IMG/VR virus record: IMGVR_UViG_3300026510_000010
Coordinates: 1 to 30,925 of that record
Reading direction: 5' to 3' (one strand)
Source of the DNA: a virus
Length of the DNA: 30,925 bases
Shown: positions 22,215-30,901 of the stretch, piece after piece
Layout: each line of letters begins with the position of its first letter
Position numbering within the stretch: the stretch's first letter is position 1
Notes under the pieces: generated by a model
The model's database searches: none
What the model was told of the DNA's origin: nothing
What the model saw: only the letters and a program-made list of their open reading frames with translations
Translations under genes and position numbers: made by a program

Positions 22215-23750
22215 TTACCTCATTAAAATATTATTTTTTGACCCTACAACAAAAACATTTCTATTATTACCCAGCATAAATACCGTTCCTACATTTGTCG
22301 ATAATGAAACTGCGCCATCAATTAACGATAAATTATCACTTAAATATGAATGTAGTATATCACTAATAATTAAAGTGCTACATTGCGTTAAATCAATATT
22401 ATCAACTGTATTACTGTGTAAATTACCAGCTATTGATAATAAATTTGCTTGCAATAATGTTAAATTATCACTTGTAATACTCTTAACGCTGTTTTGAATA
22501 TCAATAATAACGCTAAAATCTAGCGTCACATTCTCATCAATCTTGCTATGTAATATCGCATTTATTGATAACGTGCTTGCTTGCGATAGTATCAGATTAT
22601 CACCAATCTTGCTATGTAATGCGCTATCAATAGCAATTATATTTTGCTGTACTAAATCAATATTACTGACTGTATTGCTGTTGATTATATTATTGATATT
22701 TAGCGTATCGCCTGCATTTAGAGTTAGATTATCGCTTAAATTACTCTTTAAATTATTGCTAATAGATAAATTATTGCTTTGTATTAGCGCAAGATTAGTG
22801 CTTGTATTTGAATGGAATGCGCTATTAATAGTTAATGAACCACTTGCTAATAATCCTAAATTATCGCTTAAATTACTATGTGTAATCGCATTTACTGTAA
22901 TAATATTATTTTGTGCTAAAACAATATTATCGCTTGAAGCACTTTTTAAATTACTATCTACAGCTAATGTATTTTGCTGTGATAAAGATAAATTATCACT
23001 CGTTTTTGAATGAAATAAATCTGATATGATTAATAATATGCTTAGTGAACCGCTTAAAGCAAAGTATTTCTTCCTTGGTTTTAGGATTTGATATGGATTA
23101 TCTTTTAATTCTGCAACAACCCAGTCAGGCACGTATTTTCTAAAAACCATTAGGGTATTTACCGCCCCGTTATAGTTATTTAATGTACCACCACCTATAT
23201 ATAACGAGTTACCCCCAGTTAATTTTGCTGGTATTGACCCAGAAACTAATGATGTTCTCATATAGTCATCGTGAGTTACCAAAACTCTATTATTAGCACC
23301 GTCGTATGATGCACTGACATCAGTTGATTTTCCAGCAACTATAGAATTTTGTAAGGTTTCAGCTCTGTTATACCCTGAGAAATTAACGCTCAGAGTATTG
23401 ACTACCTGAGTGTAATTTGCAAAGTTGTCTACCCAAAGGCATAACCCGTTATTATATGCCCCTCCTAGACTAACAAATACATTATTACCGGTTGGTAATG
23501 ATGCTGGGGTAATATTAGCAATGATAGAAGCCTCGGTAGCACCAATACTAAACTTAGCACCACCTGCAATATTAGAAAATCCACTCCCATTAAATACGTA
23601 GTCGGTATTATATAAATGTACTACCTCACCAATATCCCTAATAAAAAGTGAATCTAGCGCATACTCTCCTGCAATACCATCCCAATCAACCTGATTATAG
23701 CTAGTTGGCTTTTCTTTAAATTTTTCCCATTTAGGTATAAAAATAGACAT
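22215..23750 (-). CDS. Fibre-like protein: LamG-like head and eleven 22-residue repeats
   Basis: A 511-residue protein. Residues about 40-210 look like a concanavalin/LamG-like jelly roll (FVSLGGAYNNGLCLWVDNF, VSASYDGANNRVLVTHDDYM, SLYIGGGTLNNYNGAVNTLM), closing with VFRKYVPDWVVAELKDNPYQ. A short linker leads to residues 243-484, eleven consecutive repeats of exactly 22 residues. The consensus is roughly LHSxxSDNLxLxQxxxLxIx, with the anchor residue (H, K or N) at 247, 269, 291 and so on to 467. A last strand region (FMLGNNRNVFVVGSKN) ends the chain. The regular repeat suggests a trimeric beta fibre shaft. ATG overlaps the previous stop by one base. Binding target unknown. Confidence 0.7.
   Translation of the reverse strand: MSIFIPKWEKFKEKPTSYNQVDWDGIAGEYALDSLFIRDIGEVVHLYNTDYVFNGSGFSNIAGGAKFSIGATEASIIANITPASLPTGNNVFVSLGGAYNNGLCLWVDNFANYTQVVNTLSVNFSGYNRAETLQNSIVAGKSTDVSASYDGANNRVLVTHDDYMRTSLVSGSIPAKLTGGNSLYIGGGTLNNYNGAVNTLMVFRKYVPDWVVAELKDNPYQILKPRKKYFALSGSLSILLIISDLFHSKTSDNLSLSQQNTLAVDSNLKSASSDNIVLAQNNIITVNAITHSNLSDNLGLLASGSLTINSAFHSNTSTNLALIQSNNLSISNNLKSNLSDNLTLNAGDTLNINNIINSNTVSNIDLVQQNIIAIDSALHSKIGDNLILSQASTLSINAILHSKIDENVTLDFSVIIDIQNSVKSITSDNLTLLQANLLSIAGNLHSNTVDNIDLTQCSTLIISDILHSYLSDNLSLIDGAVSLSTNVGTVFMLGNNRNVFVVGSKNNILMR
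22299..23024 (-). repeat. 66-bp coding repeat, eleven units without indels
   Basis: The DNA encodes eleven units of 22 codons in unbroken phase. The units have diverged at base level but keep the pattern of hydrophobic positions, the S-D-N triplet and the H/K/N anchor. The absence of any insertion or deletion over 726 bp argues for strong structural constraint on the period. Confidence 0.85.
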
Positions 23751-28622: not shown

Positions 28623-28740
28623 TATACTTTGCCCTGATAAGGCTTCTCTTTGAGTAAGTCAAATATGAATTTAAACACTATATACTTTGCCCTGATAAGG
28701 CTTCTCTTTGAGTAAGTCAAATATGAATTTAAACACTATA
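28623..28740. repeat. Perfect 58-bp tandem duplication
   Basis: The unit at 28623-28680 is repeated without a single change at 28681-28738, and the match continues 2 more bases. Each unit contains a hyphenated palindrome TTTGA-GTAAG-TCAAA (28649-28663 and 28707-28721). Identity of both copies implies a recent duplication or active homogenisation. Confidence 0.97.
28634..28720 (-). promoter_or_regulatory. Duplicated promoter-like elements in the 58-bp repeat
   Basis: In each repeat the minus strand has TTGACT (28662-28657 and 28720-28715), a 17-bp spacer and TATCAG (28639-28634 and 28697-28692). The -35 matches 5 of 6 consensus bases and the -10 only 3-4 of 6. They lie just downstream of the ssb terminator and point to the nuclease, lysis and structural genes, so they could be twin late promoters. 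The weak -10 suggests need for an activator or antiterminator. Confidence 0.4.
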
Positions 28741-28751
28741 ATTTTAGGCAT

Positions 28752-28791
28752 AAAAAAGCCCACTTCCAAATTAATGAAAGTGGGCTTTAAA
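28752..28791. terminator. Intrinsic terminator, possibly bidirectional
   Basis: AAAGCCCACTT (28755-28765) and AAGTGGGCTTT (28778-28788) form a perfect 11-bp stem with a 12-base loop. On the minus strand it is followed by a run of T (complement of the A run 28752-28757), so it should end transcription from the antirepressor-ninB-ssb genes about 100 bp after ssb. On the plus strand only three T follow. Confidence 0.85.
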
Positions 28792-28887
28792 GTCACAATC
28801 ACAACTTAGAAAAGTACCCACATACTAATCTAAGCTGTGTAGGCAACTTACGGTTAATAATTATACATAATTTTTCTTATATGTCTA

Positions 28888-29416: not shown

Positions 29417-29728
29417 TTATTTGCTTTCCGTAAATTTAATTTCAATAACGCCATTATTAATGGCATTGTTTAGCGTCCGTAGAACCTGTTCAGCTTGGTT
29501 TGTGCTGTGCATATTCTCCCATTGTTCGACTCCGTAACTATGTAATTCTGTATGGATATTACGCGCCAATGGCATAGTAAATAAATCGTGTGGTTTAGTT
29601 CCCATGCCGCCGCCTAAAACGCCTATTACGTGGTGAGCATCGTCTGCCTGCTGCATTGTTTCACAGCAATACTGCGACTTTACCCATGCTAAATATTTTT
29701 TACTCCTCCATGGATTTACTTTCTGCAT
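29417..29728 (-). CDS. DUF968-like HNH nuclease (NinB-associated recombination protein)
   Basis: A 103-residue protein matching the DUF968/YbcO-type HNH fold. It has an N-terminal SKKYLAWVKSQYCCETMQ, then DAHHVIG (His 32, His 33), GGGMGTKPHDLFTMPLARNI and HTELH (His 59, His 63), with a WE motif after it. Two Cys at 21-22 replace the usual spaced Cys pair, so zinc binding may be lost. These genes sit beside ninB in lambdoid recombination regions, and the ATG overlaps the ninB stop (TAATG). Nicking or resolving recombination intermediates is the likely role. Confidence 0.8.
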   Translation of the reverse strand: MQKVNPWRSKKYLAWVKSQYCCETMQQADDAHHVIGVLGGGMGTKPHDLFTMPLARNIHTELHSYGVEQWENMHSTNQAEQVLRTLNNAINNGVIEIKFTESK

Positions 29729-30174
29729 TAACTTATCTCCCGTTGTTTATTTTTAAAATATTCACCTGAATTTGGTATTGTTACCATACAGCCAATATTT
29801 GTAGCCCAGCTCTCAACTTGCTGCATGAAATAATACATTTCACCAGTATCTAGCTCACTTGTCTTTTTTAGTTCGCTAGTAACGCGCTGTACGCCTGTAA
29901 CCATATCAGTTCTTATCTTATCTTCATATCCTAAAAAAGTGTGCTTTAGACTACTCTTAGTGAATTCTGGTGTCCAATCTTTTTTGCCTTTTTCAATCAA
30001 AAATTTTGATATTTCACCAGTCCATCCGTGGAACGTGCTGTTCTGAGATAGCGACCTTTTTTTATTATATTCTTTTACATCAATAGACCATTCAACAGAC
30101 AAATCTAGGCTGTATAAAAACTTAACTACTGCGCTAAGTGAAATATCATTTTTTATTACAAATTTATTGCTCAT
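29728..30174 (-). CDS. ninB: NinB/Orf recombination mediator
   Basis: A 148-residue protein with the NinB signature KKRSLSQNSTFHGWTGEISK, followed by KSSLKHTFLGYEDKI and a C-terminal DTGEMYYFMQQVESWA helix. Lambda NinB (Orf) binds single-stranded DNA and SSB and can replace RecFOR in recombination; an ssb gene lies two genes downstream. ATG 30174 overlaps the end of the antirepressor frame by 11 bases (ATGAGCAATAA), so its translation was probably coupled to that now-broken gene. Confidence 0.88.
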   Translation of the reverse strand: MSNKFVIKNDISLSAVVKFLYSLDLSVEWSIDVKEYNKKRSLSQNSTFHGWTGEISKFLIEKGKKDWTPEFTKSSLKHTFLGYEDKIRTDMVTGVQRVTSELKKTSELDTGEMYYFMQQVESWATNIGCMVTIPNSGEYFKNKQREIS

Positions 30175-30817
30175 TGTCTAAGTAATTCATATATTTAGAA
30201 GCAATCCACACTTTCCATCTTGCAGTTACAAACAATGTATATCTTATCTTTCCTCCATGCTCTTCTGCTGTAGGAAGCCATTTTAAAAATCCTCTGCTTA
30301 CATAGTTTTGAATTGGTTCGCAACTGTTAGCAAATAAAATGCCCTGCTTTCTCATCAATTCATAAAACTTGTTTATTCCTAAATTCACAATATCTGTACT
30401 CTTAACAAATTCACTAACTTTTATATCACCAGCTTTAATGCTTGCTTCATTTGAAGCAATAATCAAATCATTCTTAAATTCAATTTCCTTAGCTTGATCT
30501 GCTGCAAGCTGCAAAGCTTCTGAATAGTTTTTAGGTATTGTAGGTAAATTTAATTTTTCTAGCTCTTGCCAACGATCAATAATTTTTAATCTATATTTGA
30601 CTTAGTAACCAGAAATAACTAAATCACATTCGCGCCTTGGTAGGTTGAAACAAGGTAGAGCTTTACCTTGTTTGCTTCTATACGTTCCGCGAAAGTCCGC
30701 GACTCCTATTTTAGCATCTTATAATGTGCGCTCTATATCTATCCTAACTTTATCGTGAGCCTTACCTGTCAATTCAGCAATCTCTAAAGATGACATTGTT
30801 TTACTTAATTCATTCAT
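30164..30817 (-). pseudogene. Rha/KilAC-type antirepressor interrupted by two in-frame TAA codons
   Basis: From ATG 30817 one continuous frame encodes a Rha-like N-terminus (MSSLEIAELTGKAHDKVRID), a middle DFRGTYRSKQGKALPCFNLP, CDLVISGY and VKYRLKIIDRWQELE, and a KilAC-type C-terminus (VSEFVKSTDIVNLGINKFYE, then LMRKQGILF). TAA occurs at 30721-30719 (after IERTL) and 30604-30602 (between SGY and VKYR), with matching sequence resuming in the same frame after each. There is no frameshift. TAA is a normal stop elsewhere here, so the gene is broken, though a C-terminal fragment could start at TTG 30514. Such proteins inactivate the prophage repressor or regulate lysis timing. Confidence 0.85.
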
Positions 30818-30832
30818 TTTTATTTTTCACAT

Positions 30833-30901
30833 AAAAAAACCGCTACAGGTTATGCACTTTAGAAGCGGGCTATCAATAAACCCAGTGCATACCTATAACG
30901 G
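30833..30901 (-). terminator. Large branched terminator before the antirepressor
   Basis: On the minus strand CCGTTATAGGTATGCACT (30901-30884) pairs with AGTGCATAACCTGTAGCGG (30858-30840), with one bulged A and two G-T type mismatches. Inside lies a smaller GGG/CCC hairpin (30883-30881 and 30869-30867). The stem is followed at once by seven T (30839-30833), so it is an intrinsic terminator ending an upstream minus-strand unit, 16 bases before the antirepressor ATG. Its length and inner loop also fit a regulatory leader RNA. Confidence 0.75.

Follow-up and report, generated by a model that had tools for sequence, protein, structure and literature searches.

The window, that is, the entire stretch of DNA analyzed here (30,925 nucleotides), is the whole of one contig (C257) of a 2.77-Mb bin that comprises 279 contigs and is ∼90% complete. 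A minus-strand frame of 217 codons that begins 108 bases from the contig end runs from an ATG at 30817 to a TAA at 30166–30164 and contains exactly two internal stops, both TAA, with no frameshift. The upstream context of this gene is absent from the contig. The main features of the locus are as follows.

30164–30817, minus strand: broken Rha-KilAC (putative antirepressor) gene, 217 codons with two internal TAA codons, identified from the frame and Pfam matches
30719–30721, minus strand: internal stop 1, TAA at codon 33, in a column that is variable among homologues
30602–30604, minus strand: internal stop 2, TAA at codon 72, in a column that is conserved among homologues
30164–30514, minus strand: stretch of 116 codons left open beyond stop 2, counted from its first TTG (the KilAC half), with no Shine-Dalgarno sequence in front
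29728–30174, minus strand: ninB (Orf-type recombination mediator), matching PHROGs NinB with an E value of 9e-31
29417–29728, minus strand: DUF968/HNH-endonuclease-like gene, the next in the same gene run, identified from profile matches

Over the same stretch, the remaining two forward frames contain 24 and 27 stops, and ∼19 stops would be expected in a random frame of the same composition, for which the probability of two or fewer is ∼6e-7. The translation matches the Phage_pRha family (PF09669) at residues 8 to 88 (E value of 3e-14; 53.7 bits versus a gathering score of 29.9, with X at both stops) and the KilAC/ANT domain (PF03374) at residues 129 to 209, the latter slightly below the gathering score (E value of about 1e-4 to 5e-5; 22.7 to 23.9 bits versus 25.3). 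The score against the NCBIfam model TIGR02681 (phage_pRha), 24.6 bits, is below the subfamily cut-off of 45.95. The three pieces delimited by the stops each match their own part of the domains separately, the middle piece weakly (E value of 0.07). Judged as a Phage_pRha gene, the locus is not an intact open reading frame, given its two in-frame TAA codons. Two points of the preliminary description, namely, a Rha-KilAC protein of about 215 residues interrupted only by two TAA codons and conserved sequence that continues in phase past both of them, are thus borne out. An intact product of this architecture would be expected to function as an antirepressor.

As also described previously, ninB and the broken gene overlap, the last 11 bases of the latter being shared with the start of the former. 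No Shine-Dalgarno sequence was detected for rha, for the TTG at 30514, or for ninB, and several further genes of the contig likewise lack one. With no such sequence detected at either ninB or rha, it is plausible that the start of ninB depends on translation arriving from upstream.

Other features of the window were recorded in passing. Just upstream of the rha start, a very stable hairpin is followed by a T run (30821–30899, minus strand; z about −5.9); this is likely the terminator of an upstream gene that is cut off by the contig end. A perfect 58-bp tandem duplication (28623–28738), which is either of very recent origin or a product of the assembly, is located in a stretch of ∼540 bp without convincing genes. 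At 28752–28887 on the minus strand, a strong sigma-70-like promoter (11/12, TATAAT) is followed ∼100 bases on by a hairpin and T run, GCCCACTTTCATTAATTTGGAAGTGGGCTTTTTTA; this segment might encode a small RNA, has no Rfam match, and lies near a fold with a z score of about −6. Finally, repeats spaced by 66 bp or multiples thereof (22323–23033) fall within a gene (22215–23750) that probably encodes a repetitive structural protein.

Possible origins of the two stop codons

Homologues were gathered from IMG/VR, GTDB species genomes, and phage records, and 59 non-redundant sequences were used to examine the columns that correspond to the stops. Column 33 is variable (E in 11 sequences, K in 8, D in 7, A in 6, S in 6, Q in 1, and others in the remainder), and column 72 is conserved, with S in 41 sequences and N in 12 (together 53/59) and Q in none. 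Not one of the homologues found terminates at codon 33 or codon 72. A natural end at the first TAA, which the preliminary description had named as one outcome that would overturn its reading, was accordingly not encountered; sense codons occupy both columns.

These columns bear directly on the suggestion, made in the same description, that both stops arose from CAA by directed C-to-T change. Editing of two CAA codons by a deaminase or a diversity mechanism has in its favor that a single change converts CAA to TAA, and nothing else; Gln is found in a single homologue at the first site and in none at the second, where nearly all sequences carry Ser or Asn. Furthermore, deriving TAA from the commonest residues of the two columns (Glu and Ser) would imply transversions, not C-to-T changes, and we consider such editing hardly conceivable. 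A mutator host without MutY was considered as well, the column residues being compatible with G:C to T:A changes, and was rejected: the host bin encodes a MutY that scores above the cut-off and contains no stops.

It could be, instead, that the gene has been split, such that only the Rha half is dead and the KilAC half (30164–30514, or a longer version from a rare start) is made alone. The C-terminal piece does contain 145 codons without a stop and retains a KilAC match (E value of 5e-5), and its end overlaps ninB, so that translating through it could aid the ninB start. However, the first ATG, GTG, or TTG in this piece is the TTG without a Shine-Dalgarno sequence, and stand-alone relatives of the piece were not found in IMG/VR. 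We regard a functional split as unlikely.

A second way in which the gene might remain in use is readthrough of both stops, by a near-cognate or suppressor tRNA or through a local recoding signal, yielding the full-length antirepressor at a low level. The codons downstream of the stops are conserved, the region after stop 1 forms a stable hairpin (z about −3), and a comparative study has argued that nonsense codons are frequently read through (PMC7918605). Nevertheless, more of the contig frames listed end in TAA than in any other stop codon (17/32), homologues have sense codons at both columns, and two serial stops would multiply the loss. The search of the host bin (∼90% complete) for tRNAs returned 38 places above the Rfam threshold, of which none that ARAGORN could read decodes UAA, and there is no tRNA on the contig; a suppressor tRNA was thus found in neither place, and a reassigned TAA was rejected given the commonness of TAA as a terminator and the lack of a detected UAA tRNA. 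A recoding hairpin was also rejected, as the stretch that matches the stop-1 hairpin is comparably structured in homologues without the stop (mean z of −2.05 in 113), and no unusual structure was seen after stop 2 (z of −0.3). Neither stops shared by orthologues nor a stop-specific recoding signal, the hallmarks of programmed readthrough, was observed here, and readthrough of the pair appears very improbable.

The stops might also be artefacts of assembly or consensus calling, or a minority variant in a phage population that has the intact gene. The fragmentation and incompleteness of the source bin and the location of the gene near a contig end are compatible with such an error, but it would not typically take the form of two distinct clean substitutions with no indel, and the neighboring genes are intact, making this explanation, too, a highly unlikely one.

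We conclude that the frame is probably the remnant of a regulatory gene composed of Rha and KilAC domains that was recently disabled when two point mutations, independent of each other, each created a TAA codon. Under this scenario, the two mutations would have disabled an antirepressor gene with an N-terminal Rha and a C-terminal KilAC domain. Translation from the ATG at 30817 would yield a peptide of 32 residues at most. Inspection of the sequence found no in-frame ATG, GTG, or TTG between stop 1 and stop 2, so the middle piece would lack a start codon, and the KilAC half would be made by weak internal initiation at best. The phage, or the population behind the assembly, would tolerate the loss of rha or gain from it, since regulators of the Rha type are not essential and can hold back lytic growth, above all in the absence of host IHF. 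In particular, Rha of phi80 and its relative in P22 is detrimental to lytic growth in IHF-deficient hosts (PMC4936722). No IHF-consensus site was found in the broken rha.

The preliminary description had treated two stops without an indel as unusual for ordinary decay, an assessment that did not survive calculation. Between 4.2 and 6.2% of random substitutions in the broken frame yield nonsense codons. At 0.03 to 0.15 frameshifts per substitution, ratios that were assumed, the first two hits to disable the gene would both be nonsense with a probability of about 5 to 45%. With a chance of this size, little can be read into the lack of indels; a pair of nonsense hits is unremarkable and needs no special mechanism. 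Of the three options that had been offered, the young pseudogene is the best supported, whereas directed C-to-T change and readthrough fare poorly, the former on the near absence of Gln from the homologue columns and the latter on the common use of TAA as a terminator and the lack of a UAA tRNA.

Nonsense-broken rha genes also occur elsewhere. In one other genome (G519), rha is interrupted by a TAG and a TAA, and in Bartonella sp. B1099 (locus L123), rha carries one in-frame TAA near its intragenic dyad (see below), at a position where a relative (L119) has a sense codon. A further candidate (G615) was rejected as a parallel case, its stop being located in a repeated flanking stretch. More generally, in-frame stops are over-represented among mobilome genes and are short-lived (PMC7918605).

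A candidate self-complementary site in intact rha genes

The finding that the structure after stop 1 is common to stop-free homologues led to an analysis of dyad symmetry. Among 60 non-redundant coding sequences with a Rha domain, the best inverted repeat is centered at query codons 35 to 44 in 42 cases; its arms, about 5 to 13 bp long, are mostly separated by a 4-base spacer. Against a null model of synonymous codons weighted by the codon use of each gene, 35/60 sequences are significant in this bin (P < 0.05; mean z of 2.56), compared with 1 to 4/60 in the other ten-codon bins (mean z of 0.0 to 0.3). A held-out set of 25 sequences from other genomes and phages gave the same picture, with 15/25 in codons 35 to 44 (mean z of 3.06) and 0 or 1 elsewhere. 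Both sets together, 50 of the 85 non-redundant intact relatives exceed the null at this position; given that the homologues are related by descent, these counts are not strict probabilities, and the remaining bins within each gene serve as the control.

The arms diverge while the symmetry is kept, as in GGGTGTCGTTT/AAACGAGACCC, GGTGTCTCCA/TGGAGATACC, and CAAGGTACA/TGTACCTTG, and one record has GACTCCTCA/TGAGGAGTC beside GACTATCCA/TGGATAGTC; the residues encoded by the arms change along with them. Some genes carry two or three dyads in tandem (loci L088, L111, L117, and L120); the dyad was also seen at loci L015, L281, and L282. In the flanks that were fetched, it was found nowhere but in the rha gene itself or in an additional rha gene. 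An RNA hairpin was rejected as the basis of the pattern: G-T mismatches between the arms are not enriched (5/46, G-G being the commonest type), which favors symmetry at the level of DNA over an RNA stem.

Two inverted repeats inside the broken frame are relevant here.

30688–30701, minus strand: weak dyad remnant with 4-bp arms at the usual place of the dyad, from inverted-repeat scoring
30648–30673, minus strand: perfect 10-bp inverted repeat, AAACAAGGTA-6-TACCTTGTTT, from a repeat search

The remnant scores 12, and only 6 of the 85 homologues score as low or lower (median of 19). The perfect repeat lies about 12 codons beyond the usual position and is not significant against the synonymous-codon null.

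Taken together, these patterns suggest that a family-wide self-complementary site probably exists at codons 35 to 44 of Rha/Roi-type coding sequences, its symmetry kept while its arms diverge, and that the window copy would have lost most of this site along with the protein. The site may serve as an operator for autoregulation or have a structural role in the DNA. An intragenic operator of the rha family is our leading reading of the dyad, and Clerget and Boccard are said to have reported in 1996 that Roi of HK022 binds a site within its own gene. The three tandem dyads at L120, with their differing inner arms, would be more in keeping with a palindrome that is structural or self-templated than with an operator. 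If true, the operator would provide a simple model for the whole family, with the target of every antirepressor located inside the gene that encodes it. The dyad of the intact genes would matter more than the broken gene and is a lead worth following.

Age of the proposed loss and relationship to known systems

At the 27 Rha-domain columns that are at least 80% conserved, the window copy deviates at 2, compared with a median of about 1 for intact homologues, and 42 of the 59 homologues have a deviation fraction equal to or below that of the window copy. The surrounding codons are thus conserved about as well as those of intact homologues, so the inactivation was probably recent. Either the gene lost its integrity only recently or it is still weakly used; ongoing low-level synthesis of the protein would leave conservation near normal, too. 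No close relative of the broken rha was found, the best match showing ∼60% identity over the Rha domain. Searches of IMG/VR for close relatives with the C-terminal piece, with NinB, and with exact patterns were all empty, none turned up in the genus, and the terminase of the phage is absent from the genus-level genomes searched.

If a regulator that the phage can do without, and that is at times costly, was lost recently, all the observations are accounted for. The stops, the intact flanking frame, the codons of the homologues, and the lack of a detected suppressor tRNA were observed; recency, tolerance, and any benefit we infer from them. The broken rha is ordinary in kind, another example of a phage regulator seen soon after its inactivation, and it serves as a caution that paired clean nonsense codons without an indel call for no special mechanism.

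Compared with the Phage_pRha family (PF09669; phi80 Rha, TIGR02681), the window copy matches at residues 8 to 88 and retains the conserved SGY..R.KIIDRWQELE block, but differs in its two TAA codons and in scoring below the TIGR02681 cut-off. The in-frame stops described in bacterial and mobilome genes (PMC7918605) resemble the present case in that the rest of the frame is conserved; that study, however, relies on stops shared by orthologues, whereas no orthologue with the stops of the window copy was found. The Roi-type antirepressors (Rha plus KilAC) of HK620, HK75, CUS-3, and Vibrio phages are 33 to 36% identical to the window gene over 97 to 98% of the length and, like it, have nin-type neighbors. 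Unlike the window copy, with its KilAC match just below the gathering score, these genes are intact; furthermore, ninB is located upstream of roi in HK620, HK75, and CUS-3 but directly downstream of the broken gene in the window.
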